64,000 bases of DNA from contig NC_092326.1 in assembly GCF_036785885.1 (NCBI RefSeq), positions 7,874,001-7,938,000 on the forward strand, in the 5' to 3' direction. Under the pieces are notes generated by a model. That model worked only from the letters and a program-made list of their open reading frames with translations, ran no database searches and was not told where the DNA came from. Position numbers and translations under genes: made by a program. This DNA comes from Coffea arabica (Eukaryota > Streptophyta > Magnoliopsida > Gentianales > Rubiaceae). This document shows, piece after piece, positions 1-64,000 of the stretch; positions within the stretch are counted from its first letter, which is position 1, and each line of letters begins with the position of its first letter.

Positions 1-680
1 CCTCGCCCCAAGCCGCACTTGGTCAAGCAAGAAAGTTTTACTATCACTCGGATAACCCTCACAGAGCTACACTCATGAAGTATTCACTCACAAATGAAAA
101 GCTTACAATGAACCTCACACCACTAAGACTACAAATCTTCTTTGAAGAGTATTTTCTCACTAAAATCTCTCTAGATCTTTTGTATCTTCAGTGTGCCAAA
201 ATTGTTTGAAATATCTGACCAACCACTATTTATATAGAGCCAAGAAAGTGCCTCATAAATGCTTCCAACGGATAGAAAGTAGCTGAACAGTCAACTATCC
301 GTTGGCAGTGTCGAACGTCCGATAGCCCTGTTTTATGCGTCCGACAGCAGGCAGAGAGTTTAAGAGATTTTCTTCAATTCTTTCGGACGTCCGGTAGGCT
401 GGTTTTCTGTGTCCGAAGGTATGATGTAAAACTGGGAATTTTTCTTCAATTCCTTAGGACGTCCGGTAGGCTGGTTTTCTGCGTCCGAAGATACTCAATG
501 GTTGTCGGACGTCCGATGCAGTCTTTTTGAGCGTCCGACAGCTTTCAGCAACCTTTGTCTTCTTTCAATAGCACTTGTTCATGAAATCACATAACTTCAT
601 AACTGAAAATATTTCTTGGAGAGATATTAGTATCATCCATTTGTTTTGTAAACATCAAAAGATAGGGATCAAGATCAACA
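1..680. repeat. Repeat flank of Helitron copy A, left part
   Basis: This stretch has no recognisable gene. It recurs without indels at 55827-56506 and is missing beside copy B. It holds the four-unit GGACGTCCG array listed separately. The sequence looks like part of an LTR or another dispersed repeat, but I see neither a TG/CA end nor a primer binding site inside the window, so the element type is left open. A small open frame at 575-871 has no recognisable domain and is not called as a gene. Confidence 0.6.
310..540. repeat. Four imperfect units built on GGACGTCCG
   Basis: Four units start near 311, 383, 455 and 505. Each opens with a near-palindromic GGACGTCCG (GAACGTCCG in the first). About 20 bases later each closes with a GYGTCCGA or GCGTCCGA box. 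The second and third units also share GTAGGCTGGTTTTCT between the two boxes. The palindromes contain a GACGTC core, which is a bZIP-type binding core in plants. A regulatory role is only inference. Confidence 0.6.
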
Positions 681-1702
681 CACTATTATCAATTTACCCC
701 TCAACGTTATCTTTTAGTCACTTTACCGCCAGAAGTAATTCAATTCAATATGTTAAGAAATTTTGGACAAAAATACTCTTTTATTTTATAGCATTACTAC
801 ATTGTTATTATCACTTTATTCGTTTAGATTATAGTGACACAATCACTTTAGTTTCTAACATTATTTTCTAGGCATTTTACCTCATCGTTAATCTAACTAG
901 TATGGTCAAAAAATTTTAAATATATTTATCCTTTTTATATATAATTAAAAATAAAAATTTGGAATGGTTATTCTTCCTTTTTTTTTACTTTAAGAGATCA
1001 AAAAACATAAAAATAAAAGAGTTTTGTCAAATTTCTTTTTTTCACTTTTATTAATACTAGGAAAAGGAAAAGAGATAGGAAAGAAGGAGACAAAAAATTA
1101 GATTTTGTAAAAAAAGAAAAAAAAAGAAAAGTCTAACATTATCGTATTACTTAAAGGTTGTCGAGATTAGGATTGGAATTTGGTGGTAAACAAAAAAGTG
1201 AAATAATTTTAAAATAATAAAAGTATGTAATTCTTTTTTATTTGTAATTTTTAAAAAAAGAATTGAGCTCTCCCCCTCCCTCTCTCCATCTTTCTATTTT
1301 TTTTCAATATTAATAAGATTGTCAAGAAGAAAGAAATTAATACTTTGACTTTTTTTTTTAATACTAAAAAGGAGAAGAGTCACTTTAAATTTTTTATTAT
1401 TTTTATTATGCAAAGAGGAGGGTGTTTTCTTCTAAAGTTTTTTAATTTACTAAGTTGGTTTAATGGTAGAATAAATTATCTAAAAAAATAACTCTAGGGG
1501 GTAAATTGATAATGAGACTATATTTTATGGGGGTAAAGTGATAATAATTTTAAGGGTTAAACATGTCTTTTTACTTTAATTAACAAACTCCGTTAAGTTT
1601 GACCGTTAGTCTTGGAGGTAAAGTGACTAAAAAATAGCGTTAAGGGGAAAATTAATAGGAGCACCAAATGTTAAGGGGGTAAAGTGATAATAATCCACAC
1701 AT
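681..1702. mobile_element. Foldback (inverted-repeat) non-coding element next to the Helitron 3' end
   Basis: The left arm (about 681-735) reads as an imperfect reverse complement of the right arm (about 1600-1702). Both contain the words TTTAGTCACTTTACC and ATTATCA.TTTACCCC. The middle is AT-rich and non-coding. Long degenerate inverted repeats suggest a MULE-like or foldback MITE, but I could not define a convincing target-site duplication. Only the right portion (from base 1359) is shared with copy B; the whole is present beside copy C at about 56507-57528. Confidence 0.45.
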
Positions 1703-1732
1703 TTAATACTTAGGTTTCTTCATAGTATTACA

Positions 1733-1767
1733 CTAGAGGAACCAAGCTGTGCAAGGCACAGCCTTGG
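1733..1767 (-). other. Helitron 3' terminus: hairpin plus CTAG, copy A
   Basis: On the plus strand, CTAG (1733-1736) is followed by five bases. Then comes a stem of CCAAG+CTGTGC pairing with GCACAG+CTTGG around an AAG loop, with one bulged C (1742-1767). Read on the minus strand this is hairpin, 5 nt, CTAG, then T, the canonical Helitron 3' end that acts as the transposition terminator. The same structure is present in copies B and C. Confidence 0.9.
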
Positions 1768-2097
1768 CCCTCCTAAAAATACTGATCATTGGAAAAGCAT
1801 ATATAACAATTCTAGTTGCAAAATAGGTACATAATATCATAATTACCATTCATAGATTGCTGTCAATAATTTCAGTAGCAGTTACACACCTTTCAATACA
1901 ATTAAGTCTCAAGTAGAGATACATAATGCATGCTAATAGTTACATAATATCATATATTAGAATTCATTAACTTCTAGTCATAGCGAGAATGTTAATGGAT
2001 TCTAATATGATGGCAAATGATAGCATGCTAAAAGTTCAGTAGCATCCATGATGAACAAAAGAATGAACAAAAGAGGACATGAGGCTGTGTGACTGCT

Positions 2098-5017
2098 TCA
2101 TTTTGCAGATTCACGTGGTTTCTTGAGAGGGCTCATATGAGCAGATTTTGAAGATGCAAGCTTGTTGTCTTCAGGACCATTTTTTCCAGCAATTGAGGGA
2201 ACAGCTTCAATGGTTGTCTTCTCAGCAGAACGTACATTAGTTCTGGGAATTGGAGTTTTAAAAGTTAAGCTTCTTTTTACAGTAATGTTTGAAGAGGCTA
2301 GCTTATCTGCATTATCAGACTTGCGCCCAATTGAATCTAGGATCATTTTTATTGTTGGGCTGAAGATTTGCCTTCAGTGGCAAGTTGGTCAGTGACAGTG
2401 GAGCGAGCAGTTAAATCAACCTGTTCAATGGTGCTGGTCGGCTTCTCAGTTATGGTTGGAGCAGTTGGAACAGGCTCTTCCACAGGATTAGAGACAACTG
2501 TGCGCATGATTGCCGGGTTGATTTCAGCCAATTCTTTAGCAGTGTATATTTTGACGATGCTATACTTATCATCTTTCTGCCTTTGATAATTCGAGTCAAA
2601 ATGGTGGACAAAGCATAGGACTTCACGGTTATCAATTGCAGATGCAATTTCAGAAAATACCTCAACACCCTATATTTTGCAAATAAACAAAAAAACAAGC
2701 TCAATACCCTGTATTTTCAGAAATTTTATAGACTACCAGAAAATGTAAACATGATGCAATTTCAGAAGAAAGCTTAATAGTAACATAGATTGAAGGCGAC
2801 GTGAGCTGGGAAGTTCCGACGACATGAGCTGGGAACTTTCCTTTAACATTCCAGCCCAAATTTCTAACTTTTTACAAGTTTTCAGCCAAACATCTTATAA
2901 CACTTGAGATAAACATATTGCATGCATTTGCTAACATTATTTTCCAAAGAAACATTGATAACAAGCTGCAACTTCAGCTTTCTCTGTCGGTTCCTGCTAT
3001 TTTTTTTTCTTTCCAATAGCTAATCAGTTATTAAACAGAATTTTCCTCAACTAAAACTCATTTTTCCTAGCTAAAATTCAACATGCAACTTAAGAATTCA
3101 GTTATACCAGATAATTAAAAGATTGTTGCAATCTTAATGCTGGCTAAAAGAAACTTTTAGCTAGTTCCAGTTAGGAATTTTGTTTCTTGACTACGATTGA
3201 GTCTTGTCCTTGGAAAGAATAGCAAAATAACTAGAGGGACATTACCAGATTTGCAGGCCAATCAATGCAACCATAGACAAAAGAAAATAGAGATATTGCA
3301 TGTTAATAGTATGAGTTTTTCAGCATCTTACGTGTTCATCAGCTTCACTTAGTTGTACTGCTGTGAATGGAATGAGTTTTTCAGCATCTAGACCAAATAA
3401 TACTACATACATTGAACTTGTTCCGTCATCAATGATAATTCCAATACGGCATCTAGTATATGATAGCAGTGAATAATGGTTAATCAATGAAATAAAACAG
3501 AATTATTGTTAAGAGCACTGTTGTAAAATTGCATGCCTTGTTTACCTGGCTTCAACGGCACTTTCTTCTCTGCAAGATGGACATCTAATGATCCATTCCA
3601 AATTAGCATCTACAGCCTTTTGACAGTTACTACATGCAGCATACCAAAAAGATCGCTGCTCAGCTGCCAAAGAAGTATTTCCTTGTATCCAAGCAATCTT
3701 GACCTATAGTTTATATTGTATTAGATGCAAAGTTAAGTAATTCATTTTTCACTAATGTAAAAGGTAAGAAAATAGTATAAGTCAGTTTGGACGGAGGCAG
3801 CAATTTGGTTGAGTCTTTGTAACTGGCCTCCTCAATTAGTTGTGCAATTTCTTGCTGATTCTGATCATACCTGTGAACATAAATATGATATGTTATATTT
3901 TTCAGTCTTTATGTATAATTATAAAGCATGATATGCTTACCATTGCCTTAATACAGTGGCTTGAGGAGTTGGTGGATTCACCAGTAGACAACTTGCAAGC
4001 CTTGTTGTTAGACATAGATCTATGAAAATAGTATATAATTAGCTCATTAAAGTTGAAGTATGGTAGGCAAAGCAATAATAATTTCTTGAGCAATGGGAGC
4101 TGTAACTTACAGTTAAAAGTAGTTACTTTGACTCTCATAACTATGATGATGTTGTTGTTTGCGATAGTGTTTGCCAGCTGTGCTCCTTCATTTGCTTCAA
4201 ATTCGTTTCACAGAGTAAGGAGCATTGGCCTTTTCTAAAAAAAGCAATAAATATGATAAAAATTAAAGAATGTAATAAGTTTATTTAGTAAATTGAAAGT
4301 CTATTCTTTTGTTCCAATTGGCTTACACTTGATTAATAACAACCAAGTCTCTAGTCGTTGAATCAAGACTTTGTTCCCTTGAAGGAAAAGCATGCACGAC
4401 AATATCCTGGATATCTATTATTCAAAGGAATATTTCAATCTAAGGATAAGCTGAAGATAACATAAGGAATACATTGGGATTATCTAAGATAAAACATGAA
4501 CTTACTTTGCAAATTTTCTGTGTCAGCAAATCTGAATAAGTTTTCAAACGCTGTGAGCTCAAAGTGACACGGAATAACCGGTGGAACTTGCTCAACATAC
4601 TCCTCAACCAACATTCTGTTATGGATTACCCAAGAATATGGGTAGTCACTGACCTTATACCTTGGTTCTGCTTTGCGAAGAGCTGCACTGGAGATATAGT
4701 ATCTCCTGAATGGCATCAACATGCCAGCAAAAAAACGGATATCATTGCCATAGATGACTGCTGAAACCTTTGTTTCCTGTTGCATCATAAAGAAGAAAAG
4801 TTGTAAATTTGTAAAATAGTCAAAGATATATGCAAAAATTGAAGAAATATCTTTATTTTTTTGTTACCTCAGAATCTGTAAGAAGGAAGCGGCAGTAGTT
4901 CACAGGCCTTGCTCCTCGACTCAACTGAACATGTCCTCTCGCAACAACCTGAGCCAGTACTGTCCATCCTTTTACTCCCTCAACGACCTCATTCACTGGA
5001 AGGTAACGTCTTGCCAT
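2098..5017 (-). pseudogene. Helitron RPA1-like single-strand DNA-binding protein, copy A (broken)
   Basis: Plant Helitrons often carry a replication protein A large-subunit homologue, thought to bind the displaced single strand. Nine exons can be traced: 5017-4868 (starts MARRYLPVNEV), 4776-4506, 4414-4329, 4234-4111, 4019-3941, 3870 to about 3775, 3703-3546, 3452-3332 and 2669 onward. GT/AG sites and phases agree except at the exon 6 donor, which I could not place. Exon 2 carries the GNDIRFFAGMLMPF OB-fold block and exon 7 a CxxC...CxxC zinc ribbon (YAACSNC, RCPSC). Lesions: a Trp codon of exon 4 reads TGA at 4208-4210, and the last exon stops at 2349 while its Ser/Pro/Lys-rich tail continues in another frame to 2098. 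Family assignment is firm; exact ends are inferred. Confidence 0.82.
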
Positions 5018-5120
5018 GCTTATTTATAAATGGTACAAACAGATGAATTTAATTCTAAATGTAGACTACAATTATGATAGGATTAATTAAAAATTGAAGA
5101 AACAGCAGAAGAATGTTCAT

Positions 5121-8100
5121 TTACTTGACAGCTAATTGAGAAGCTTCAAGAACTTCTCTATATACAATATTTCTTGTCTGATTTATTCTAGATTTATCAA
5201 AAAATGGAAGCTTAATGAGTAACTTGACTTGTGAAACTGTTCTTGAACGTGATAACCCCACATAAAGCTGGCCATGAGAAAACACATGTTCTCTTAAATA
5301 AATACCTACAAAATCTAATGTTTGTCCTTGAGCTTTGTTAATTGTCATTGCAAAGCAAAAACGGATTGAAAACTGAGTTCTCTTATATGGGACAGGGTAT
5401 TGCTCATCAGTGGGAGGTTCTAACGGAATTCTATGGATGAAAACATCTTTTCCAGCAAAATCACCTATAACTATTTGAGCATGAATAACATTTCGGCTCA
5501 AATTCCTGCATATTAATCTTGTCCCATTACAAAGGCCTTCAGTAGGATCTAAATTTCTAAGCAAGATTATTGGTGCATTAACCTTCAAGATTAGCCTATG
5601 TGGTGGAAGTCCACTTTGGGAAAGAGAATTCAAAAAGTCCTCATACTGTCCCTGATAATTTGGATTTAAGGTTTTATCAAAACTAAGATATTCTACTGCT
5701 TCACCTGGAAATTTGCTAATGAGAATGTCGTTCACCTCATCAACAAAATTATTTTTTGTGGACAGAATTGCTTGGTTGACTGGAATGTTAGCATCTGATG
5801 ATCCAGGTATGGTATTGGGGTACATTAAATTTATCAAATTATCTAGTGCAAAATCAGCCTCACTATTTTCAAGCAAAATTGAAGAGGGAATCTTTATGTA
5901 GCTATCATCTTGGATTTTTTCAGTTCCATTGCCAACTCTCAATAAATATCAGTAAATGAGGGTTCTAATCGAGCCCTCATATTCTCTGTTAACTGCAATT
6001 TTTCAAGAGAAGGCTATAGAGGAGAATTTATTATGCAAGCATTAATAGTCTCAGATTGATTTCCTTTACGAACAACTGGCAATGTTTGTCTAAAGTCGCC
6101 ACCAAAGACAACAACTTTTCCACCAAATATTTCTGATGAGTTCATAAGATCTTGCAATAGATCATTTAATGCTTCAATTGCAGATCTTTATGACATAGGA
6201 GCCTCATCCCAGATAGTCAATTTGGATTCTCTAATCATTGCTGCCAGATTGCTTTGTTTGCTAACTCTACATGCTCTGCCTTCTAAAAGATCAATTGGGA
6301 TTTTAAATCGTGAATAGGCAGTCCTACCTCCTGGTAGTATAGAAGTAGCAATTCCCAAAGTGGCTGTTGCTAGTGCTAAATACCCTTTAGACCTTACATC
6401 AGCTAGCAATGCTCTATAGAGAAATGATTTTTCAGTGCCTCCAGGGCCATCTACAAAAAAGGCCCCACTTTTGTTCTCATATATGCGGTGAGATATGATC
6501 TCAAATGCATGCCTTTGTTTTTCATTAAGCAAAGAAATTGCATTCAGATCTTCTTCATGAACTGTTATGCTTCTTTCAGCTAACAATTCCCTTGTTTAAT
6601 TCTCAACATCAAAGGATGATAGATCATTAGGAACCAATCCAAATGAAGCTATGCTTTTTCCCATTGATGCAAGAAAACCACTTATTTGTTGCAGTACCTT
6701 TTCCCTGACCTCTCTAGGAGTCAAATCTGAACACCTTAGAAAATCCTCTGACATTACAGCCTCAAATTTTAACCATAATTGTCTGGGATTGTTAGGACAG
6801 GAATATACCAAAAAGGTTGTAAAAAGTCTTCTCAATTCATAAGGCATATGAAAGAGAGAAGCCTCTTCAAGACAATGTTCTTAGCTGTTATCATCTTGAA
6901 GTAGCCCTCTTAAAAGTGCTACTTCATGAAAGGTTCTAACCTGTACACTATTATAAGTCTTCAAGTCTTCGAAGGATTTCGGAGCACGGACTTTTGTTAA
7001 AAGAAGCCTAAGGTAGTACCTCTCTTCTTCAGTCGGATGGACTGCATTTATTCTTCCTATAGAGTCCCCTTGATCTCTCATTTTCCAACGTTTCTCATCA
7101 GGAAGTCAAACAAAATGGTCTGAAAATTCAAAATATGTATAGTTCAGAGTTTGAGCTTCTGAATCTGTTCTATTCATGTAGAAGAATTCAGTGAGCATTG
7201 TCTTTTTGTTTCTTGGATTGCTCACAACACTGGTCAAATTCTGATGCTTTTTGAAACTTATAGGCTGATAGTTTTCTAGGTGAAGCTGCAAATGAATTAC
7301 TACAGGTTTTATTTTGCCCATAGCAAAACAAAAAAGTCTCCATCTAGCCTCACGTGGTGAGACCCAGCGAGCTACCCGATATTGCTGGATTTCATCAATA
7401 TGGCTGTTTGGATTATCGGAATTAACATGAAAATTGATTTTATCATGTCCTTTGCAAATGTATTTATAGATGTACTTAACAGCCTAAATTGTTGAACAAA
7501 TTTCAACATTAATGTGACAATCAAATTTAGCTAGTAAATAGGCATTATAGGGAACAACCCATCTATTATCTAAGGAATGCTGTCTAACTTTGACTCTAAC
7601 ACCATTAGTACTTCGCCTATATATTGGATAAGAATTAATGGTCTGGGTTGTTTCCTCACAAAAATCCTTTGGATAGGAATGCCTACACTTGCCATTCTTT
7701 GTCATACACACACTTGATGGATTTAAAACACCGCATGGACCATGCATCATGTGTTTTTTTAACCATTCTATATAAGTGTGGGTATTTCACTTTGTCTGGA
7801 ATATTGGCGCTGATAATCTTATCATACTCTTCAGGTCTGAACATTTTATGTTTACATTTCAAAATTAAGAGGAAGTGTGCATGTGGCAAGCCTCTTTTTT
7901 GAAACTCTATAATTTATGTATAGGCTGCTACTTCACCAAAAATATTTTTCTTCAGGATTTTATTTTTTAATTCTTCAAGTTTAGCACGAAAGACTCTTAC
8001 AATCAAATCAGGCCGATTCTGTGCTTCTTCTTTTTCAATTAGGTGTTCTTTTATTTCTGACCAATTAAGATTGCAAGTCATGGTCAAGAAAATATCCGGT

Positions 8101-8654
8101 TTGCCAAATTTTTGGACCAAGGTCATTGCATCTATGTATTTTCTTCTCATATTTCTTGGCTCTCTAATAAAACTTGTCAATAAAAAAAATTCTCTGACAA
8201 ATATTTGCTACCTGAGTTTCACCAGCAGCCACAGAGTCTTGTATTCCTTGCAAAAACTCTCCTTATTTCCTTTTGTTGTGATCTAAAAAAATCTAGTCTT
8301 TAAGATTCAAGCTTAACATACATATCCACTATAAATTGCTGAATTAATCTAGCAAAATGAAGCAAAAAAGACTCATTATCATCCCTTATCTGGAACTTAT
8401 AAGCATAATACTCTCTCACATAAACAAAATTTGGATCATTATCAATCTTCGCCATTGCTGGTAGACAAATTGCAGAATAATTAGTTAATTTACTATACTG
8501 AACTGAACTACAAATAGATGAATAAGATTGGCTACACCTACCATCTTGTTCCATCTGTAATAGTTCTTCAACAGTAGCAGCAAGCATTGGGGAAATTGAA
8601 CTTTCAGAATTCTTATTTCGAGTCTTTTTCTTGTGGATTTTTTTTCCTTTTTTT
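5121..8654 (-). pseudogene. Helitron Rep/helicase, copy A (truncated and broken)
   Basis: The rolling-circle initiator of Helitrons: an HUH endonuclease joined to a Pif1-type helicase. Read from 8654 downward the order is a Helitron-like N region (REYYAYKFQIRD), FLTMTCN near 8080, the HUH motif GLPHAHFLL near 7880, YPKDF near 7650, and the two-tyrosine YIYKY near 7465. The helicase follows: Walker A region near 6440, WDEAP near 6200, GGDFRQTLPVV near 6085, and KAQGQTLDFVGIYL to YVGLSR near 5260-5330. Walker A reads GPGGTEKS, so the invariant Gly before Lys is lost. In-frame stops lie at 8300, 7914, 7484, 7106, 6881, 6596, 6188 and 6014. Frameshifts lie near 8240, 8187, in the T7 tract at 7754-7760, and near 5945. 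The natural C-terminus ends at 5121. The zinc-finger N-terminus is missing. Confidence 0.9.
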
Positions 8655-9588
8655 GCTTCCATGGACTAGTGAATGGCGTCAAACGAGTCGATGATAATTT
8701 GCCTTCTCCATTCACTCCTCCCCCACTTGCATTTATTGGTTCAAGATATCTCGCCATCGCCACTCTTAATCTATTCCTGTCATGAAATTCAAAATTGTCT
8801 GGTATAATAAAGTCAATTTCGTTAACAGGAATTGGAGAGTAAGAGTCAGGAGAATATTGATGAAGGAGTGGAGGAGATGTCACCGCATTTGGAGATTGTT
8901 CACTGGATTCTTTCACTTGAGCGAGTTGATCTTGGAGTCTCATTTCTTGCATTTCAGCTTCCTTTTCAACTGCATCTTTAAATCCGTTTTCTTGAAACTC
9001 TTGCAGTTCCATGTCATTTGGCCGGACAATTGCACTCTCATCTTCCTCAAGATTGATATTGGTTTGTGCGGGCAATTCTTCCATTTGAGGAGCCAATCGA
9101 TTTATTCTGGATGTCAATAGACATAGTTGATCTGCCAGGTCGCGAAGGCTCGCTTGTGTCTCCTGATGAAATCGATTTAGGCTCGCTTGTGTCTCCTGAT
9201 GAAATCGATTTGTATTAGCAATTAGTAATTCCATCATTTCTTCAAGAGACATACCTGACACGGAGGATGATTGCTGAGACTCTTGCTGTTGAAAATCCAT
9301 TGGCCTGGTTGCATAATCAAAATTGGAATTATCCCACCATTCTTGATCATACCCGTTTGAATAAGGGTCATACTGCGTTTGATATTGGGGTGGAAAATCT
9401 CCAAAAGTATCAAGTGGAGAACTTAGATTATCTTGAAATACGGGGCATGTGTCAGTTGAATAACCTGAGTCAAAATAAGTTCCACAATTTGCAACAGCCC
9501 ATTGATCATTAGAAAAAGCACAAGCTTCATAACCCTTTCTAAAAATAAAATCCAGTCTATCACCAAAATACGGAATGTTAGCAGTCAT
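8655..9588 (-). pseudogene. gag-like N-terminal fragment of the LTR element
   Basis: An open frame of about 311 native codons starts at ATG 9588 (MTANIPYFGDRLDF), just downstream of the primer binding site. Its position, together with a Gln/Ser-rich start and a coiled-coil-like acidic middle (SLEEMMELLIANTNRF, then Glu-rich), fits the start of a gag polyprotein. No zinc knuckle is seen because the C-terminal part is lost. The frame is open into Helitron DNA down to 8485, giving a chance chimera. A 33-bp perfect tandem duplication (9146-9178, 9179-9211) repeats 11 residues. The exact protein family is not recognised. Confidence 0.6.
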
Positions 9589-9676
9589 AAACTATATATA
9601 TATAATAAAAAAAATAAGAGGAAAATAATTTTAAAAAAAAATGAACTCAAAAAGAAACTAATTAATCAAGCACCAG

Positions 9677-9694
9677 TCCCCGGCAACGGCGCCA
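9677..9694 (-). other. Retrotransposon primer binding site
   Basis: The minus strand reads TGGCGCCGTTGCCGGGGA, five bases inside the LTR end. This sequence is the primer site used by Athila/Calypso-type plant elements and is usually described as matching the 3' end of tRNA-Asp. It fixes the LTR boundary at 9700 and the element's orientation. Confidence 0.8.
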
Positions 9695-9699
9695 AAAAT

Positions 9700-11114
9700 T
9701 GACAGGGTGTCGAAGCCTGTGCAATAATAAAACCTGCTCAAACTAAAGTTAATTTCTGTAGATAGCGGTAAGCAGGGTCGAATCCACAGGGACTGGGAGT
9801 AATTGTTTCTTTTTAAATTCACAGTGACAAAGGGGGATGTTTTTATCTCAGGGGTGACAATTTAAGCAATTCAACTAAAATCTAAGAAACTACTAAAAAT
9901 TAAATAACCAATTACTAAAATCAAATGAGTGATAATTAAGGATCTAACCAAGAAATAACTTCAGCAATGGTTCACCTAATTGATCATTGAAACAAAGGCA
10001 ATTCCAATTATTTATCAATAAATAGGTTATAACTACCAAACAAGCGATGGCAGTCAACCCCTCCTTACTGTGTCGGTGATCAAGGTACGCCCGTTAATCA
10101 CTGCTCTAATTGAGAAATAATCCTAGGTACGCCCATAGAATTTAATTCCCCAATTGTCTTACGTATTAGAGGAGCCCTATTCTAACCAAATAACACACTA
10201 CCAGGGTTATTTTAGATTAGCCCGCGTATTCCCCTGACATAAACCTAATCATGCCAATTGTCACTATTTTAGAGCAATTAAACAATTACGGATTTAATGC
10301 CCTAATTGACAATAGATTACCCAATCAACTAATTATCTGGATCCAAGACAATCAATTAATTAAATAACCATAAGCATAGCAATCAAGAAATGTGCGGATA
10401 CCAATAAATAAAAGGAAAAGATTAAATTAAAACGATCTCACAATTTTTAGATGAACCAGAGCCTTCGTTGCTCCTTGACTAGAATTGGAAAATTAGTTCA
10501 TAATTGATGAACTAAACCCACCAGAAATTGTAAAGAGAGCCGCAGCCATTGTCCCTTGAAATTGGGGAAATTCAATTCGGTTCCAATGTTTGAAAAGATA
10601 GCAAAGCTACAGCAATTGATTCTATGGTTTCTACTTGTCCAATCATACGAGAAGGAAAAGGAAAAGCTACTTGGAGCCCACAAGGAAAAGTCAAAAGACT
10701 AAGCTAAAGAGTTGTCTGCCATTGTTTGCTCTATTCCGATCTAATGTCCTCTTTTGAGAAGCTCTGCGCGGCGGCTCTCCTTCCGCAGAGGAAGAAGAAG
10801 ACCCCTTTTTTCTTGCGCAATTTTCCTATATAAAGTAGTGCTCCTTGCGGCGGCTCCTGTGCGGAAAAATGAAGACTTCGGCCCAATTTGCCCAACAAGG
10901 GCTCACGTTTTGTTGTTCCAAAAATGCCCCTAGGACAAACTCTATCATCTGAACTCTTTTCTTGCCAAATTAGCACCTGTTGTTATATTTTCGTTCTACT
11001 CCCTGAAATAAATGCAAAATATCAAAAGTGAGTAGAATCTAGCAATTAATCCACATTAGGTCAGGTAATAGGGAAAATTAATAATAAAATAAATGATAAA
11101 ATTACAACCTATCA
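9700..11114 (-). repeat. LTR (1415 bp)
   Basis: Bounded on the minus strand by TGATAG at 11114 and CTGTCA at 9700, the latter directly followed by the spacer and primer binding site. It is non-coding; small open frames at 10498-10683 and 10731-10976 carry no recognisable domain. It is a single LTR in this window, so no age estimate is possible. Confidence 0.75.
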
Positions 11115-11337
11115 GGAAGTTAAGCATTATTTAATTCTTTTCATGAAAAAGTCATGGATGCCGGCTATAGCACAGGGCCACCATGTTCTATATATTGGAT
11201 AATGGCTGGGCTTTAATTCAATTGCCATACAAAGCCATCTTTAGTCCATCACAACTTCACTACTTTGGGAGCTTTCTTCCCTAAGTAGATTTGCTTTCAA
11301 ACAAGAAAAACATCATTCAAGCATCTAGATAAGAAGC

Positions 11338-11643
11338 ATGAAAGGGAGGGAAATGAGCTCTTCCCCTACTTATGTAAGATTGTCCAGCAGCAATGATGCA
11401 GAGGCAACAAGCTCTCCTAGGAAAGGTTATGTTCCTGTACTTGTGGGAACTGACAATGAAGACATGGAGAGACTATGCATTCCTGTTAAGCTGATAAATC
11501 ATCCTTCTCTGGCCTCTTTACTTGATGATTCCGTCTTGGATTTAGGATATACGCAGCACGGGTTACTTAGAGTTTCATGTGGTGCTGAAGACTTCAAAGA
11601 AATTGTCAAGAACATATCAAGAAGGAAGTATGTTCTATTCTAG
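11338..11643 (+). CDS. SAUR-family auxin-responsive protein
   Basis: An intact single-exon protein of 101 residues, the usual size and structure for the SAUR family. The core runs from about residue 30: GYVPVLVG, then IPVKLINHPSLASLL, DLGYTQHGLLRVSC, and a C-terminal ISRRK. These are the diagnostic SAUR blocks (VPV.VG, LNHP.F..LL, E.GY...G.L..PC). The N-terminus is polar and Ser-rich. SAURs are small proteins that promote cell expansion, in many cases by inhibiting PP2C.D phosphatases at the plasma membrane; that role is family knowledge, not shown here. ATG 11338 is taken as the start; the next Met at residue 6 would also keep the domain. A TATATA word near 11190 may be the core promoter. 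No intron or lesion is seen. Confidence 0.88.
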   Translation: MKGREMSSSPTYVRLSSSNDAEATSSPRKGYVPVLVGTDNEDMERLCIPVKLINHPSLASLLDDSVLDLGYTQHGLLRVSCGAEDFKEIVKNISRRKYVLF

Positions 11644-14055
11644 AGTTCGTGTTTTCTGTAGACATTAATCAGCTAAATCATAATTAGCAGGCTGTATAAA
11701 TGATGTATAGTTTTGATGCTTGTGAAATAGACCCTCAACTTTTGAGGTCTTGGGTTCTAATCCCCTGCACCCTTCCTGCTTTTAAATCACACCCCTCTCC
11801 TGCTAGAAAAAAAAAATAGAAAAAGTGTTGATGCATAGTCTCAGAAAGCCTCATTATGTAATTGAACTAAATAAGTTCAAACACAATGCAAAGAATTTTG
11901 GCAAAGTTCAGCAGTGAAGATTTACTTAAAATTTTGTAGACTGTACAATATTTATGCATTTCTTCTTGGTCCCATTGTTGACTTGTCGTACCATTCCTCA
12001 AGGCCCCTTGTTTATTATTTTGTGGTTGCAGATTATCAAGGTCTGTTCAATTTGTTAAAGAATGAAACTATTTTGGTTGAATCTATCCTGTACCCTAAAG
12101 AACAGTAAGAGAAGATATTACATCGGCATTTATGTCTATATATGAATCAATCGCAGGTGCAATTTGCAAAAATACATTAGGGGCAACCTTAGTGCTTGTG
12201 AAACTTTCCAAAGAACAAAATTAATGTTTTGAAGGTGCATCTGAAAAAAAGTTTTAGTCTTTGTAAGATTCGTTGGTAAGTGTTTTTGGCCTAAGTGTGG
12301 GGAATGACCCCTCATACCTGAACCTCAAAGTCAGGCTATGGAAGACTTTTTTCTGCTCTAGTGCATTCACGTTTTTAATTGTGTAACAGAACAAGCAACA
12401 TACTCTTGCCTTTCAGTAAATTCTATATTAACAACATGTATTTTTTTTTGTTTTACAAAAAAAGGTCCAGAGCATTTAACAAATTTGTGATTTTGGATTG
12501 TTTAGTATTTCAATTCCATCAAATTACAAAACTCGTCATTTGATTTTGGAATAATAAATTCACTTTAGAAAAATAGAGTGGGACCAAAGGTACAGATTTC
12601 AGGTTGTTCAAGGAGAGGTTTTGAATTCGAACACTCTCATGTATACTATAAAAAAAATCACATAATAAGTAAAAGTTTCTATTCCCCGATAAAAGAGCAG
12701 ACAATGACATATTTGAATTTATAAATAAAGCAATCATTTTCTTTCAAAAAACATGCAGCGCCTTGTACAATTGCTCGTGCCCCTGCAATTCTGTGAGGGG
12801 AAGGAGAGAAAAGTTTTTGTTTTTATTACAAATGTCACCTCTGCTTTGTTGATCAAAGAAGTCATCTTTGCATTTTTCTTAGCTAATTAATAGTTTGTAC
12901 AGTTTGTTTTATTGAAAAATCCGCACAATCCACTCAACTAATGAATCAAAAACTATATCGCTTTTTAAGAGAATTAACTGACTAAAGTAGAAGGCTTGTA
13001 GTTTTGGATTTTTCAGTGATCCATTAATTTCTCAACAACTTAGTTGGCGCAAAACTGAAAATTTTTCAAAATTTTGTGGATACTAGTGCAATTTTCTGGG
13101 GGCTGCGGAAGGTCTGCCCTAACTCTATTCTATTTTATAAATATGGTTAGGGACCACGGAGGAAAAAACATTTTAATATCTGCAAGTGATCGAGAAAAAG
13201 TGGCTATGGTTGAAGCCACGCGATTTCGAGGCCTTGGATTTAAATTCGGTTTTTCTACTTTACTTGTTAAATCCCACTCCTTTCTTACTAGGAAAAATTA
13301 ATAAAAAAAAAAATGATTAAGGGAAAGAAACTATTATTGGAACAGAATCAGCACTTATTTTCTTCACATGGAAAGTCTACGAGAACAATAGGAAGAAACT
13401 TAAATCTTCTACCTACTCGTATTATTTTCTGTTTGGATATATCTATTCGTACTATTTTTGTCTTGCTACTCTTCCAAGCAAGAGTATAAAAAAAAAAAAA
13501 TTTTCCTAGCAAAGAGTTCATTTGCTAAAATATAATTCTTATCAATTGCCTAAACATTTATCGTCTCGTTGCATTTTTTTTTTTTTTTGACCAAGAAAAT
13601 GGAATCCAAGTTAGTCAAGAATAACGGATGCTGGAATCCGTACTTTATTAGTACGTATTAGGCTCAGAAAGAGTCAATTTTTTAACTGGATTGACTATGA
13701 TAAAGGACTTGGACCTGAATTAGTAGGATACAACCAGCAAGCGTGTTAATTCAGTACATCCCACATGAATTATGACTTTTTTAATGCATGATCTGTGTGA
13801 TTAACCCGATATACACACCAGGCCATTATTTGAATTTTTTTTATTGTGTTATTCGCTGAATACATTTATTAATCACATTTCCACACATACGTATTTATTT
13901 ACGGACAATGGTATAATGTTATTCTCAAAACATTATCTAAATAATCTTAAATCCGAATACATTCTAAATAGGTGGAATGGCATAAGATGTTATTAATTAT
14001 GTTGGATATTGGATATTGCTTTCTCATACTTTCACTCACGTGTGACTTTGTATTG
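11644..14055. other. Spacer without recognised genes
   Basis: AT-rich non-coding DNA downstream of the SAUR gene. Short open frames (11914-12108, 13074-13301, 12519-12737 on minus) show no recognisable domains or codon bias. There are several A or T homopolymers, for example near 13490 and 13570. The first 150 bases probably contain the SAUR 3' UTR. Confidence 0.6.
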
Positions 14056-35103: not shown

Positions 35104-35111
35104 GGGAAGAG

Positions 35112-38477: not shown

Positions 38478-38480
38478 TTA

Positions 38481-40077: not shown

Positions 40078-42314
<2,237 letters not shown>

Positions 42315-48016: not shown

Positions 48017-48050
48017 CCCCCCCCTCCTCCTCCTCCTCCTTTTTTTTTTG
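48017..48050. repeat. C-rich/(CTC)n/T-run simple repeat
   Basis: A run of C followed by about six CTC units and then a T run, inside the presumed 5' UTR intron of the F-box gene. Confidence 0.8.
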
Positions 48051-48318: not shown

Positions 48319-48357
48319 CAAAAAAAAAAAAAAAACACACACACACACACACACACA
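48319..48357. repeat. A-run plus (AC)n microsatellite
   Basis: About sixteen A followed by about eleven AC units; likely length-variable. Confidence 0.85.
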
Positions 48358-48790: not shown

Positions 48791-49150
48791 AATAGGGAGG
48801 GGAAATTCTTCTTACACATATATTTGGCTTGTCATTTCTTTGAAGTTTGGTCTGGAGTTTCCCTCAAAACTCTTGCGTGAATGCGGACTTGTGGTCTGTC
48901 CGAAAGTTATATGAAAGGTTATTTTTTTGAGTTTGGTATGGATCCCGATCATGAATCATGTACTATTTAGATATTCTTACATGTAAGAAGATACTTTGAC
49001 GATTGTGGTATGGACTTAGATTCTTATTTGGTTTAATTATATAAAAAAAATATTCATATTTGGTTTAAGTCCAAAGCAAAGAAATTTGAAAAAAAAAATT
49101 GGTCAAAAGCATCATTTGTGGATCATGTCGTTGATCATATAGTGTGTCCA
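48791..49150. other. Spacer without recognised genes
   Basis: AT-rich sequence upstream of the F-box gene. It shows a local repetition of TTATTTGGTTTAA-like words near 49020 and 49060. No gene was seen. Confidence 0.4.
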
Positions 49151-51320: not shown

Positions 51321-52410
51321 GAGGGCGGAGACAAAAGCGCCAAGATTAATAATCAGATTCCACGTATCAAAAAACCCCCAAAACTCAGCAGCCAAATTAA
51401 TTCATTAGCATCAATCAAATCAAATGTAACCCTAATCCGGCAAAAACAAACTAAAACAAAAGCAACCACAAAAATTCATTCAAATCCAACTTCAAGAATC
51501 TACACCAGTAATTCTAGACAATTTTTCAAAGGAAAAGGGAGGAAAAAAAACTAATAAGAGACCATCATACCTCTGGAAATACTTGAGGAGTCTTCACCCT
51601 TGTTAGAGATGCTGTTGCAGGAACGGGGATGAGATGTCGCTGCCAGAGTGGGTATGAGCCGTTAACATTGGCTGCTTTTAAAGGAAAAGAGAGAGAGAGA
51701 GAGAGAGAGATGATAATTGTAGCTGATTTTTAAAAGGAGAATAACCTAATTGGAAGAGTTGCTTACCTCTGAAAGCGGGTCTTTGCCGCAGCTGGAGATG
51801 CCGCCGGCGAAGAAGGGAGTGGTTTGCCGATGAGACGTTGCTGGAGATGGTCTATTATCACTGACGAAGAAGGGATTGGTCTTTTATCGATGGTTCACTG
51901 CTGGAGGCTTACGAAAGGAAAATAAAAGTTATTTTCCTCCGCACGGCGTAACTTATTTTCTGTTAGAAATTATTTTTTCGAATTAATTATCAGCCAAATA
52001 ATGGAAAATATTTTCCCAAAAACATTTTTCACCCAAACAAATGGGCCTTAGGGCTAAGGCCCATTTGATTCACGGGATGACACACAGGATTCAATTAATC
52101 ATCTGGTGTCATCCCATATTTGGTTATATTTTATATATGGGATGATACATTCAAACTATCCGAATTAATTTTCTATTTATGGGATAAAATACTCCTATGG
52201 GCAAGGTGATATTAGTCATTCTGGAATGACTAACAAATAGGATGATAAAATTTTTTACTAATTTATCTTTATAAACAGTACAAATTTATACTCTCATAAT
52301 TATATAACCCTACTCCCATATTATAAAATATAACATGAATGGACTAATTTGCCTCTACTAATTAATTTCAAAGTTATTTGACTAATATGCCTCTACTACC
52401 AACATAACAA
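51321..52410. other. Spacer with simple repeat and hairpin
   Basis: No coding domain was seen. It contains a GA microsatellite and the 12-bp-arm palindrome at 52039-52066. Sequence just left of the palindrome (CATTTTTCACCCAAACAAAT) and just right of it (GGCCCATTTGATTCACGGG) look like ends of two MITE-type repeats meeting head to head. Confidence 0.45.
51688..51710. repeat. (GA)n microsatellite
   Basis: About eleven GA units. Confidence 0.9.
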
Positions 52411-52592
52411 TGGGAGTGTTTGGATACAAAACTTATCCCAAATAATATTTTGCTTGCATCATAAACATATTTTTCAACGCACTTTTTTATATTTTCAATC
52501 ACCTTTTTATCTCACATACATCACATCACAAAAAGTGTTACAGTAATTATTCCAAATAATATTTCAAATAATACACTATCCAAACAAACCCA
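52411..52592. mobile_element. MITE of the same family as 38306-38477
   Basis: The terminal inverted repeats TGGGAGTGTTTGGATA and TGGGTTTGTTTGGATA match at 14 of 16 positions. The interior shares CTCACATACATCACATCACA with the Tourist-like element at 38306. The target duplication is not clear here, suggesting an older insertion. Confidence 0.65.
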
Positions 52593-55500
52593 AATATTTG
52601 AACTAATTTGCTCTTGTGAATGATACAAATTCATACTGACTATTATAAAACCATACTCTCACATAATAATATGATAATAAATGGATTAATTAGCTCCTAC
52701 TAATTATATTAAAAATTTTTTGACTAATTTGCTCATACTAACATCACAATAAAAGGTCTATATTGCCCTTAAACTAAATTACCCTTACTAAGCTTATTTT
52801 CTCAACTAAATTCTATATGGATACACAATCCTATCAATTGGCCTTTGTGAATGAGAATTTCAATAAGTTCAAACTTGACCCAAAGAAAAATCTTCTATAT
52901 TGGTTTGAACTCGACTCATTTAAAGCTCTTAAATAGGTTTTGTCTTAATCGATTTAACCCTAATTTAGCCAAAACTTGACCTGTCATTTAATTGGAAGGT
53001 AGCAGGGAAAGGGAGAGTGAAGAAGAAGGGGTGAGGTGAGGGGAGGAGGAGAGAGGGGAAAGGAGGGGGAGAGAGAGAGAGAGAAAAAAAAGCAAAAAAA
53101 AAAAAAAAGGAAAAGGAAAGATAGAAAAAGAAAATTTTTTAAGTTTTTCTACAAGTTCTACACTAAGGGCTTGTTTGACAAAGGAGTTTTTTTGCTAAGT
53201 TTTTCTCCTATAAGTTTTTTTAACAACTTTAATTACAATAATCTATATCTATATAAATTTGAGAAGCGTTTTTTAGTAATAAACTTCCACACACCTTCCC
53301 TTTCTCAATTCCATTTTTCTACCATTTTATATTTAATTTGTTTTGTAAAATACATCATGTCCACCTTTTCATCAAATAAGAATACCACTCCAACTAATAC
53401 TCCTCCCCTCACACAACTTCTCACTCTAATTAATACTCATCCAATCAACAATTCCATTTCAATTAAAACTCCTCCAACCCAATAATAAGAGATAACAACA
53501 TAATTTCACAAAAAACTGCAATTTACCATCTCTTTGAACTTCTTTCTAGAGTGAATGAGTAACAGGCACTGAATTGTGGAGATATGAAGAGGGAATGAGT
53601 CAAATGTGAGACTACCATTTGGGTTTGTATTCCATTTCTTGAGCTCTGATTTAAATAAATAATTAAGATAATAACCTTACAAAGAAAATAAGGAATAGGA
53701 AATGCAATTTTGCCTAACCTAAGAAATAGGATAAAACACATAATACTATAAAAATCTATATCTATAGGTATTATGGGGATGGTTTTATGGATGATTAAAT
53801 CAGAATACTTATAACTCCTCATTATTTTTTATAGAATTTTAAATTTTTTAATTGTTATATATTTTTTCATGTCTTTTGAATTTAAATGTAAGAAGTGGCT
53901 TACTTATATAGGAATTTGATTTGAAATCTATTAATGTGAGGGTAAATAAAGAGGAAATTCACCAACCTTACTAAAAGTAAAAAAGTAAATAACAATATTT
54001 TACTCTTCAACTCAGTAATCCTAAGTAAAAGGGCAAATTATATGGAAAAAAAATAATATTCATTGGTCATGGATTTAAAATATCAATAATAGTACCATTT
54101 GTGAATCCTAAATTATGAAATTACTAAATAGAAAACAAAGTACTACTAGCCTAAAAAACAAATTATGAATTTATAGGGTTTGAGAGAATGGTGAAGGGAA
54201 ACGAATAGAAAATTGGGTGGCAAAAATAGAAAGTTAGAGGTTAGCTATAAACGAGAGAAAGAGAATATCAAGAAGTTAAAGAGTGGTGGGAAAAGTCAAA
54301 AAATAAAGATAAATTATTACAAGATCGGACGAAGAGAGAGGAGAAGAAAGCATGAGATTGTAAGGATATGACAGGAAAGATGACACCGTGGTAAGAGGTT
54401 TGAAAATCATAGAAGGCAGCGGATAGTTAATTAGCAGGTAAGAGAGGATAGAAAGAGTGATAGTTTTTAAAAATTTTGAAAATTTTGAAACACATCTTAC
54501 AAAGATTATTTTAAATATATATTAAAATTTATGAAGAGCATTATTCTATAAGTACTCAACAATTTAGGATTACAAAATGAGAGAAATTTTTTTTAAAATT
54601 GAGGAAAATGAATTAGTTATACTTTATATTTTTAATGTTAAAAATTTTGATATATGGGTATAAAATGATATATTGATAAATAAGTTTACAATTGCTTTAT
54701 CATATAAATCGTTATAAATTAAATTATTTTACTAAAATTGTTACCATATATTGACAAATAATAGGTTAACAAATTTTGATTTCAACTTATTTAAGATATT
54801 AAAATTAAGAAAGTCCATTTTGTACTTATGAAATAATTTTTTTTTAACATGTTAAGCATGCACTTCTTTAAATTTTTTTTGTTTATATACTTTATTTTAT
54901 ACTATAATATATAAGTATTGTTTTGAATTGAAATATAAATTCGTGCATAGCATGGGTCAGAATGCTAGTCTTAAAAAATTTCTCAAAATGTTTAAAATAT
55001 ACAATTCAAAATACCTAAAAACACACACAAAAAATTACCTTCTTCCTTTCTTCTTCTGAGGGGAGAGGGAGAGAGAGGAATATGAGGAAAAGAGAAAGAG
55101 AGGAGAGCAAGGAAGGAGAGAGAGAAAAAAAAAAGATGTTGTTGCAACGGCGGCCGTTTAGGAGGAAGGGAGCGAGAAGAAGATTGTAGTGGGATGGGGG
55201 AGAATAAAAGGAAAGAAAAGAAAGGGGGAAAAAAAGAAAGGAAAAAAAGGGAGAAAAATGAAGTTTTTTTTGTTAAAGAAAAATTTTTACATACCTCAAA
55301 ATGTTTTTTTGACAAATTTTATAATAAATTACAATAAAATTTTAGATAAACAAAAAAAAAATTGGTGAAGGAGTTTTAGAAACTAAAAACACCATTTGTC
55401 ATGCCGGGCCATAGTTAACACTGAAAAAGAATTGCACAAACCGCATCAAATCTTCAGTCCTCTTTGTCCCCTATACGAAAAAGCTGCCACTTGCCCATAA

Positions 55501-55826
55501 TTAATACACTTCTCTACAAAGCCAGTTAACATATTTAGTGTTATTATCGCTTTACTCTCTTAAACTATATTACTATGTAAGGCCCGAAAACAACCCTTTT
55601 CTAGGCGACCACACAATGGAGCAGTTGATAAGAAAGCACAAGTGCTTGTGAGTAGAAGAGATAAACAATTTAAAGATCATAAACGTAAGAATAAGTAAAT
55701 AAAAAGGAAAGAATTGCAAACCAATTAACTACCCAACTCCTCTTGAGCTTGTAGATTGATTCAAACAAGTTACTTCAAGTTGATGAATTACAATCACTCT
55801 TGTGTACAAAGGAAGGATCACTTCCT
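52593..55826. other. Spacer with low-complexity tracts
   Basis: AT-rich DNA with a purine-only tract at about 53036-53140 (GA repeats and A runs) and an A/G-rich tract at about 55050-55290. Open frames at 53036-53485, 53523-53822 and 54992-55315 are composition-driven and unmatched. The last 250 bases may belong to the repeat that continues into the duplicated unit at 55827. Confidence 0.5.
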
Positions 55827-57558
55827 CCTCGCCCCAAGCCGCACTTGGTCAAGCAAGAAAGTTTTACTATCACTCGGATAACCCTCACAGAGCTACACTC
55901 ATGAAGTATTCACTCACAAATGAAAAGCTTACAATGAACCTCACACCACTAAGACTACAAATCTTCTTTGAAGAGTATTTTCTCACTAAAATCTCTCTAG
56001 ATCTTTTGTATCTTCAGTGTGCCAAAATTGTTTGAAATATCTGACCAACCACTATTTATATAGAGCCAAGAAAGTGCCTCATAAATGCTTCCAACGGATA
56101 GAAAGTAGCTGAACAGTCAACTATCCGTTGGCAGTGTCGAACGTCCGATAGCCCTGTTTTATGCGTCCGACAGCAGGCAGAGAGTTTAAGAGATTTTCTT
56201 CAATTCTTTCGGACGTCCGGTAGGCTGGTTTTCTGTGTCCGAAGGTATGATGTAAAACTGGGAATTTTTCTTCAATTCCTTAGGACGTCCGGTAGGCTGG
56301 TTTTCTGCGTCCGAAGATACTCAATGGTTGTCGGACGTCCGATGCAGTCTTTTTGAGCGTCCGACAGCTTTCAGCAACCTTTGTCTTCTTTCAATAGCAC
56401 TTGTTCATGAAATCACATAACTTCATAACTGAAAATATTTCTTGGAGAGATATTAGTATCATCCATTTGTTTTGTAAACATCAAAAGATAGGGATCAAGA
56501 TCAACACACTATTATCAATTTACCCCTCAACGTTATCTTTTAGTCACTTTACCGCCAGAAGTAATTCAATTCAATATGTTAAGAAATTTTGGACAAAAAT
56601 ACTCTTTTATTTTATAGCATTACTACATTGTTATTATCACTTTATTCGTTTAGATTATAGTGACACAATCACTTTAGTTTCTAACATTATTTTCTAGGCA
56701 TTTTACCTCATCGTTAATCTAACTAGTATGGTCAAAAAATTTTAAATATATTTATCCTTTTTATATATAATTAAAAATAAAAATTTGGAATGGTTATTCT
56801 TCCTTTTTTTTTACTTTAAGAGATCAAAAAACATAAAAATAAAAGAGTTTTGTCAAATTTCTTTTTTTCACTTTTATTAATACTAGGAAAAGGAAAAGAG
56901 ATAGGAAAGAAGGAGACAAAAAATTAGATTTTGTAAAAAAAGAAAAAAAAAGAAAAGTCTAACATTATCGTATTACTTAAAGGTTGTCGAGATTAGGATT
57001 GGAATTTGGTGGTAAACAAAAAAGTGAAATAATTTTAAAATAATAAAAGTATGTAATTCTTTTTTATTTGTAATTTTTAAAAAAAGAATTGAGCTCTCCC
57101 CCTCCCTCTCTCCATCTTTCTATTTTTTTTCAATATTAATAAGATTGTCAAGAAGAAAGAAATTAATACTTTGACTTTTTTTTTTAATACTAAAAAGGAG
57201 AAGAGTCACTTTAAATTTTTTATTATTTTTATTATGCAAAGAGGAGGGTGTTTTCTTCTAAAGTTTTTTAATTTACTAAGTTGGTTTAATGGTAGAATAA
57301 ATTATCTAAAAAAATAACTCTAGGGGGTAAATTGATAATGAGACTATATTTTATGGGGGTAAAGTGATAATAATTTTAAGGGTTAAACATGTCTTTTTAC
57401 TTTAATTAACAAACTCCGTTAAGTTTGACCGTTAGTCTTGGAGGTAAAGTGACTAAAAAATAGCGTTAAGGGGAAAATTAATAGGAGCACCAAATGTTAA
57501 GGGGGTAAAGTGATAATAATCCACACATTTAATACTTAGGTTTCTTCATAGTATTACA
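55827..57558. repeat. Repeat flank of Helitron copy C, matching window start
   Basis: Matches 1-1732 without indels (offset 55826), including the GGACGTCCG array (56136-56366) and the foldback element (about 56507-57528). The left limit of the shared unit cannot be set, because copy A is cut by the window start. Confidence 0.9.
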
Positions 57559-60843: not shown

Positions 60844-60946
60844 GCTTATTTATAAATGGTACAAACAGATGAATTTAATTCTAAATGTAGACTACAATTA
60901 TGATAGGATTAATTAAAAATTGAAGAAACAGCAGAAGAATGTTCAT

Positions 60947-63900
60947 TTACTTGACAGCTAATTGAGAAGCTTCAAGAACTTCTCTATATACAATATTTCT
61001 TGTCTGATTTATTCTAGATTTATCAAAAAATGGAAGCTTAATGAGTAACTTGACTTGTGAAACTGTTCTTGAACGTGATAACCCCACATAAAGCTGGCCA
61101 TGAGAAAACACATGTTCTCTTAAATAAATACCTACAAAATCTAATGTTTGTCCTTGAGCTTTGTTAATTGTCATTGCAAAGCAAAAACGGATTGAAAACT
61201 GAGTTCTCTTATATGGGACAGGGTATTGCTCATCAGTGGGAGGTTCTAACGGAATTCTATGGATGAAAACATCTTTTCCAGCAAAATCACCTATAACTAT
61301 TTGAGCATGAATAACATTTCGGCTCAAATTCCTGCATATTAATCTTGTCCCATTACAAAGGCCTTCAGTAGGATCTAAATTTCTAAGCAAGATTATTGGT
61401 GCATTAACCTTCAAGATTAGCCTATGTGGTGGAAGTCCACTTTGGGAAAGAGAATTCAAAAAGTCCTCATACTGTCCCTGATAATTTGGATTTAAGGTTT
61501 TATCAAAACTAAGATATTCTACTGCTTCACCTGGAAATTTGCTAATGAGAATGTCGTTCACCTCATCAACAAAATTATTTTTTGTGGACAGAATTGCTTG
61601 GTTGACTGGAATGTTAGCATCTGATGATCCAGGTATGGTATTGGGGTACATTAAATTTATCAAATTATCTAGTGCAAAATCAGCCTCACTATTTTCAAGC
61701 AAAATTGAAGAGGGAATCTTTATGTAGCTATCATCTTGGATTTTTTCAGTTCCATTGCCAACTCTCAATAAATATCAGTAAATGAGGGTTCTAATCGAGC
61801 CCTCATATTCTCTGTTAACTGCAATTTTTCAAGAGAAGGCTATAGAGGAGAATTTATTATGCAAGCATTAATAGTCTCAGATTGATTTCCTTTACGAACA
61901 ACTGGCAATGTTTGTCTAAAGTCGCCACCAAAGACAACAACTTTTCCACCAAATATTTCTGATGAGTTCATAAGATCTTGCAATAGATCATTTAATGCTT
62001 CAATTGCAGATCTTTATGACATAGGAGCCTCATCCCAGATAGTCAATTTGGATTCTCTAATCATTGCTGCCAGATTGCTTTGTTTGCTAACTCTACATGC
62101 TCTGCCTTCTAAAAGATCAATTGGGATTTTAAATCGTGAATAGGCAGTCCTACCTCCTGGTAGTATAGAAGTAGCAATTCCCAAAGTGGCTGTTGCTAGT
62201 GCTAAATACCCTTTAGACCTTACATCAGCTAGCAATGCTCTATAGAGAAATGATTTTTCAGTGCCTCCAGGGCCATCTACAAAAAAGGCCCCACTTTTGT
62301 TCTCATATATGCGGTGAGATATGATCTCAAATGCATGCCTTTGTTTTTCATTAAGCAAAGAAATTGCATTCAGATCTTCTTCATGAACTGTTATGCTTCT
62401 TTCAGCTAACAATTCCCTTGTTTAATTCTCAACATCAAAGGATGATAGATCATTAGGAACCAATCCAAATGAAGCTATGCTTTTTCCCATTGATGCAAGA
62501 AAACCACTTATTTGTTGCAGTACCTTTTCCCTGACCTCTCTAGGAGTCAAATCTGAACACCTTAGAAAATCCTCTGACATTACAGCCTCAAATTTTAACC
62601 ATAATTGTCTGGGATTGTTAGGACAGGAATATACCAAAAAGGTTGTAAAAAGTCTTCTCAATTCATAAGGCATATGAAAGAGAGAAGCCTCTTCAAGACA
62701 ATGTTCTTAGCTGTTATCATCTTGAAGTAGCCCTCTTAAAAGTGCTACTTCATGAAAGGTTCTAACCTGTACACTATTATAAGTCTTCAAGTCTTCGAAG
62801 GATTTCGGAGCACGGACTTTTGTTAAAAGAAGCCTAAGGTAGTACCTCTCTTCTTCAGTCGGATGGACTGCATTTATTCTTCCTATAGAGTCCCCTTGAT
62901 CTCTCATTTTCCAACGTTTCTCATCAGGAAGTCAAACAAAATGGTCTGAAAATTCAAAATATGTATAGTTCAGAGTTTGAGCTTCTGAATCTGTTCTATT
63001 CATGTAGAAGAATTCAGTGAGCATTGTCTTTTTGTTTCTTGGATTGCTCACAACACTGGTCAAATTCTGATGCTTTTTGAAACTTATAGGCTGATAGTTT
63101 TCTAGGTGAAGCTGCAAATGAATTACTACAGGTTTTATTTTGCCCATAGCAAAACAAAAAAGTCTCCATCTAGCCTCACGTGGTGAGACCCAGCGAGCTA
63201 CCCGATATTGCTGGATTTCATCAATATGGCTGTTTGGATTATCGGAATTAACATGAAAATTGATTTTATCATGTCCTTTGCAAATGTATTTATAGATGTA
63301 CTTAACAGCCTAAATTGTTGAACAAATTTCAACATTAATGTGACAATCAAATTTAGCTAGTAAATAGGCATTATAGGGAACAACCCATCTATTATCTAAG
63401 GAATGCTGTCTAACTTTGACTCTAACACCATTAGTACTTCGCCTATATATTGGATAAGAATTAATGGTCTGGGTTGTTTCCTCACAAAAATCCTTTGGAT
63501 AGGAATGCCTACACTTGCCATTCTTTGTCATACACACACTTGATGGATTTAAAACACCGCATGGACCATGCATCATGTGTTTTTTTAACCATTCTATATA
63601 AGTGTGGGTATTTCACTTTGTCTGGAATATTGGCGCTGATAATCTTATCATACTCTTCAGGTCTGAACATTTTATGTTTACATTTCAAAATTAAGAGGAA
63701 GTGTGCATGTGGCAAGCCTCTTTTTTGAAACTCTATAATTTATGTATAGGCTGCTACTTCACCAAAAATATTTTTCTTCAGGATTTTATTTTTTAATTCT
63801 TCAAGTTTAGCACGAAAGACTCTTACAATCAAATCAGGCCGATTCTGTGCTTCTTCTTTTTCAATTAGGTGTTCTTTTATTTCTGACCAATTAAGATTGC

Positions 63901-64000
63901 AAGTCATGGTCAAGAAAATATCCGGTTTGCCAAATTTTTGGACCAAGGTCATTGCATCTATGTATTTTCTTCTCATATTTCTTGGCTCTCTAATAAAACT
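60947..64000 (-). pseudogene. Helitron Rep/helicase, copy C (broken, partial in window)
   Basis: Read from 64000 down, it includes the MTCNLNW block, GLPHAHFLL, YPKDF, the two-tyrosine YIYKY, altered Walker A (GTEKS), WDEAP, GGDFRQTLPVV and the C-terminal helicase motifs. It ends at 60947. Stops and frameshifts sit at the same places as in copies A and B (offset 55826 from A). The N-terminal half lies outside the window. Confidence 0.9.

Follow-up and report, generated by a model that had tools for sequence, protein, structure and literature searches.

Exactly repeated segments at a C17 locus of the Coffea arabica assembly: a very young complex duplication or a false one

In plant genomes, double-strand breaks can be patched with kilobase filler DNA. 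Tandem segmental duplications have adjacent direct copies and one new internal joint. Clustered duplicated segments are also found in plant chromoanasynthesis, as described after haploid induction in Arabidopsis (PMC4461816) and in irradiated poplar (PMC8423247). According to the accessible text of these two shattering studies, joints with microhomology or inserted bases occur beside blunt ones, and inverted joints make up 17%, 36% and 47%. Both rest on dosage and validated junctions, whereas the locus described here is known from assembly text alone. False duplications occur in long-read assemblies (preprint PMC12991106, accessible part), and one form, overlapping contig ends left unmerged, is trimmed by PurgeHaplotigs clip (PMC13231562, accessible part). 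The C17 locus of Coffea arabica is of a kind already known, either a young complex duplication or a false duplication.

The window, the whole 64,000-nucleotide stretch that we analyzed (C17:7874001-7938000), was compared with itself and with a genome of 1,197,963,845 bases in 131 contigs. The 100 kb on each side were also read, giving 264 kb altogether, and positions are counted from the first base of the window. The initial annotation had claimed that the two ends of the window are identical. Base comparison confirmed this, as 1-8174 equaled 55827-64000 at 8,174/8,174 positions with no indel, at an offset of 55,826. These are all the positions comparable at that offset within the window, and no match boundary is visible there. 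Beyond the window, the match extended to -4539..8654 and 51287..64480, a length of 13,194 bp with 0 mismatches. We infer that exact matches of many kilobases are beyond chance. A circular record or wrapped window was discarded as an explanation, because the window occupies 7.87-7.94 Mb within a contig of 44.25 Mb. A viral and a plasmid source were likewise rejected: a 34-base pattern occurred in 0 viral contigs, and window 1-25000 had no plasmid match, in searches from which the window's own genome records may be left out.

As written, the C17 locus reads pre-a-R-y1-R-y2-a-R-y2-z, then 500 N, then part of y2-z. Between and including -4539 and 93786, the text agrees base for base with the chain a R y1 R y2 a R y2 z. 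The first copy of segment a spans -4539 to 1358 (5,898 bp, with 1..1358 inside the window) and is identical to the second at 51287..57184. Segment R, part of a broken Helitron on the minus strand, occurs three times: copy A at 1359..8654 (7,296 bp) is identical at 7296/7296 positions to copy B at 16747..24042, as the self-comparison of the window revealed, and to copy C, which begins at 57185 and passes the window end at 64000 to reach 64480. Between copies A and B lies y1 (8655..16746, 8,092 bp, plus strand). Segment y2 (24043..51286, 27,244 bp) recurs identically at 64481-91724 and is there followed by z (91725..93786, 2,062 bp). The stretch R-y2 is therefore written twice, 16747-51286 being equal to 57185-91724 over an exact 34,540 bp. 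Together, a, R and y2 form a 40,438-bp unit in two head-to-tail copies. The first copy is broken at 8654 by the 8,092 bp of y1, and beyond this insert the text resumes from a point 7,296 bp before the break. The offset of 55,826 is thus the sum of 40,438 (a, R and y2) and 15,388 (y1 with 8,092 and another R with 7,296). The flank outside the Helitron, given as 1.7 kb in the initial annotation, needed revision, since copies A and C share, without B, 1,358 bp within the window and 4,540 bp to its left.

The joints between these segments were of two sorts. The a/R joint (1358..1359) is native and lies within a repeat of ~1 kb (about 681-1696), where it is crossed by at least 15 genome copies at 89-92% identity among the matches listed (best 40 of 7,298 candidates). 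The y2/z joint is also native: C18:6563837-6566828 runs through it at 94%, so that the right outer edge of the duplication is as in an unduplicated relative. The three new joints are R/y1 (8654..8655), y1/R (16746..16747) and y2/a (51286..51287), the last being where the 40,438-bp tandem copy is joined on. All three had 0 bp of microhomology and no filler, and all were in direct orientation. At R/y1, both the flank of y1 on C9 and the sequence that natively continues R differ already at the first base, and y1/R interrupts the ~1-kb repeat at the position corresponding to 1359.

The y1 segment was identical to C9:5820716-5828807 (plus strand) at 100% over 8,092 bp, the only other full-length match among those listed (best 40 of 6,790 candidates). 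On both sides, the C9 flanks of y1 differ from R at the first base. The first 2.46 kb of y1 is a dispersed repeat, many relatives of which lie on other chromosomes. The part from 2461 to 5406 had its other listed relatives only close by on C9, at 97% and 93%, and the part from 1043 to 2460 had a 99% relative 4 kb away on C9. Because of these nearby relatives, C9 was the likely source of y1. The segment is written both on C17 and on C9 (8092/8092), a copy from elsewhere without loss at the donor. It holds a SAUR-type reading frame (11329-11640, Pfam PF02519) and an RNase H-like (RVT_3) frame (14459-15133, Pfam PF13456).

Segment R and the start of y2 make up a broken Helitron with a Helitron_like_N remnant and PIF1-like helicase pieces on the minus strand (Pfam PF14214, PF05970 and PF21530). 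Besides the remainder of this Helitron, y2 contains a gypsy-type frame, a small LTR element and two genes, RPL18A and an F-box gene. The ribosomal protein L18A exon lies at 41973..42311 on the plus strand (PF01775, E 4.7e-21), and the exon of the F-box/LRR gene at 46518..47531 on the minus strand (PF00646 and PF24758); both are in the duplicated unit. ARAGORN detected no tRNA in the window, and none of the Rfam families scored up to its gathering threshold there. The LTR element (25443-27279, 1.8 kb) is flanked by the target duplication CAAAA, and its LTRs are 96.3% alike, so this Helitron copy is an old one.

Window 42000-50000 matched three C17 places at 100%, two before the gap and one after it, and a single place on C18, where the match is split into three pieces (95-98%), among the matches listed (best 40 of 1,706 candidates). 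A single C18 copy is the pattern expected of the homeologous chromosome in a tetraploid. No near-identical a-R-y2 copy elsewhere was among the matches listed for 1-3000, 42000-50000 and 3 kb around y2/z, and all matches listed in the five genome searches fell on C1-C22.

The locus resembles each of the described systems in part. Like a young tandem segmental duplication, it has a 40,438-bp head-to-tail unit in identical copies with one new joint (y2/a) and a native y2/z, but its first copy also carries an interchromosomal insert and a nested 7.3-kb duplication, that is, y1-R. A kilobase segment from another locus inserted at C17 recalls filler-DNA gap patching; unlike such a patch, it is accompanied by a direct repeat of 7.3 kb and lies next to a 40-kb tandem copy. 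The clustered duplicated segments and blunt joints are shared with plant chromoanasynthesis, in which blunt joints are among the types in the accessible text (PMC4461816, PMC8423247), whereas C17 has three joints only, 0 inverted and with 0 microhomology, and one piece from another chromosome. The presence of 21.5 kb at either edge of a 500-N gap is what unmerged contig ends would give; alone, however, this leaves the C9 piece and the three joints without N (8654, 16746 and 51286) unexplained.

This gap is the single N run in the 264 kb (93787-94286), 2.1 kb past the second y2. 3d-DNA writes gaps of 500 N. Past it, 94287-113721 equals 31852-51286, the later part of y2, and the next contig then continues into z. 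The 21.5 kb of like sequence at the two gap edges comprises 20,960 identical bp, a 37-bp indel and 537 identical bp up to the contig end. In the BLAST row, the last identical stretch before the gap measures 538 bp, one base being shared. The 37 bp are absent on the pre-gap side, 537 bp from the contig end; judged by match lengths, the other 39/40 matches keep them, C18 included, among those listed (best 40 of 103 candidates). The 21.5 kb is probably an unmerged contig overlap. It lies 30 kb past the window and bears out in part the assembly overlap suspected in the initial annotation.

The source appears to be the HiFi assembly of the di-haploid Coffea arabica line ET-39. According to the accessible text of its report, this assembly has 1,198 Mb, 22 pseudochromosomes, 132 scaffolds and 238 contigs, and was made from DNA cut to 20 kb with hifiasm 0.16.1, ALLHiC and 3d-DNA, with manual adjustments last (PMC11018527). 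Haplotype copies are not expected, since the line is apparently di-haploid. The 34.5-kb identical stretches are longer than the 20-kb fragments and so cannot have been spanned by reads. Reads of 20 kb cannot separate the R-y2 copies (34,540 bp), and the written order and copy number are therefore the assembler's guess either way. Among the papers listed for the ET-39 assembly and duplication, judged by the listing and by the accessible text of PMC11018527, none was seen to describe the C17 locus.

Two readings can be largely put aside on the structure. A 55,826-bp tandem duplication, proposed in the initial annotation, would explain the constant offset within the window. Past 64480, however, we read the B-like TGGATTCCC, which is the sequence after 24042 and not that after 8654, an outcome named in advance as refuting the tandem model. 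With y2 rather than y1 following 64480, this reading is refuted within this assembly and has practically no weight left. Repeated transposition, whether of the Helitron or a larger composite element, might be suggested by the Helitron sequence of R. The shared termini with diverging flanks that transposition leaves were not seen, as R starts inside the ~1-kb repeat and ends, at R/y2, within an open Helitron reading frame. The identical segments begin and end in unrelated elements and include genes, which also speaks against the amplification of a larger composite element. Since the Helitron copy is old, its identical copies cannot be independent transpositions. This upholds the earlier argument that independent jumps of two dead Helitrons are insufficient, and we consider transposition in any form to be highly improbable. 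The initial annotation was also right to place the choice between a very recent duplication and a fault of assembly.

The assembly problem in its pure form is a serious rival, only somewhat short of an even chance. Here, a single-copy pre-a-R-y2-z would have been written end to end as overlapping pieces: a first that stops at 8654, 8.1 kb of stray C9 sequence, 16747-51286 (34,540 bp, R-y2), a-R-y2-z (42,500 bp) and the post-gap contig. This would account for the 0 mismatches between written copies, for the 0 microhomology at all joints, as with arbitrary piece ends, and for the lack of inversions among them. The 21.5 kb doubled around the gap implied that at least one piece was apparently left unmerged. 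The pre-gap contig also ends without the 37 bp kept by nearly all other listed matches, and the published method closed with manual adjustments (PMC11018527, accessible text). However, the artefact needs two back-jumps within the same locus and a foreign piece, all joined without homology or N, which from general knowledge is abnormal for an overlap assembler. A single-copy locus would moreover give plentiful native pre-a-R-y2 reads. The 37-bp difference also bears on a real array larger than written, in which z before and after the gap would come from different copies and y2-z would be present at least three times. In a homozygous line, such a difference between z ends could mark two loci. 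It lies, however, 537 bp from the contig end, where one aberrant read can set the text, and the preceding 20,960 bp are identical; the larger array seems very unlikely. The weights given to a real rearrangement, an artefact and a larger array are a matter of judgement and not of computation.

A very young rearrangement of the C17 locus, imperfectly assembled, is the reading we slightly prefer to a pure assembly artefact, at about an even chance. The segment structure is exact to the base, a/R and y2/z are native, and y1 comes from a foreign chromosome. Overlap assemblers do not normally produce joints without homology, so that joints in real molecules are favored. The process might have started from a single pre-a-R-y2-z locus and remained local. 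Repair or replication would have departed from C17 at 8654 to copy 8.1 kb of C9 and then returned to C17 at a point 7.3 kb upstream. From there it would have proceeded to 51286, switched back to a point 40.4 kb upstream and continued through y2 into z. An equivalent route would be a 40-kb tandem duplication, followed by a templated insertion and a 7.3-kb duplication in the first copy. The assembler would then have broken at the locus because the repeats are longer than the reads, and a contig break is expected here for that reason. On the other side stand the 0 differences over 40,438, 7,296 and 8,092 bp (55,826 duplicated bases), although the 40,438-bp unit holds 19 homopolymer runs of 10 or more bases. 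The lack of microhomology, filler and inversion at the three joints, the identical stretches longer than the sequenced fragments and the nearby 500-N gap also speak against a rearrangement. With a rate of 7e-9 per site per year taken as an assumption, the age would be less than about 3,800 years, which is an upper bound only and takes both written copies as independent readings. The assembler may, at a guess, have unrolled a single collapsed repeat, in which case the R-y2 identity is by construction.

A more specific form of the rearrangement is doubtful. One replication-based template-switching event may have chained C17, 8.1 kb of C9 and C17 again, leaving extra, near mutation-free copies of RPL18A and the F-box gene, possibly at the origin of the ancestral haploid of the di-haploid line. 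The 0 bp of microhomology at 3/3 joints weakens this claim without excluding it, because blunt joints occur in such events too (accessible text of PMC4461816 and PMC8423247).

The question of duplication is narrowed to three named joints and read depth. An artefact would mean that the reference contains a spurious 40-kb copy with two genes, 8 kb of foreign insert and 21 kb of overlap, and copy-number and gene-family work at this locus would be misled. If the rearrangement is real, it would be a base-resolved complex duplication of practically zero age in a crop reference line, with its likely donor locus known.

The window opens with two repeats. Positions 1-680 are a recently amplified repeat, with numerous copies at 97-98% spread over several chromosomes among the matches listed. 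The adjoining repeat (681-1696) is about 1 kb long, has similar inverted ends and resembles a DNA transposon; at least 15 copies at 89-92% identity were found among the best 40 of 7,298 candidates in the genome search. Further inside, the Helitron hosts a small nested LTR element at 25443-27279 (LTRs of 534 bp, 96.3% alike; TSD CAAAA).

Right of the window, a 500-N gap (C17:7967787-7968286; window coordinates 93787-94286) has the same 21.5 kb written to its left and to its right. Among the best 40 of 103 candidates, match lengths put the absence of 37 bp solely in the pre-gap copy.

Relatives of y1, the segment at 8655-16746, were seen among the best 40 of 6,790 candidates. Those of y1 parts clustered at C9:5815248-5851669 (93-99%), surrounding its likely donor locus. 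Several matches to its first 1.9 kb lay in C13:13980677-14040222, and the spacing of about 6.25 kb between many of these suggests a tandem array.
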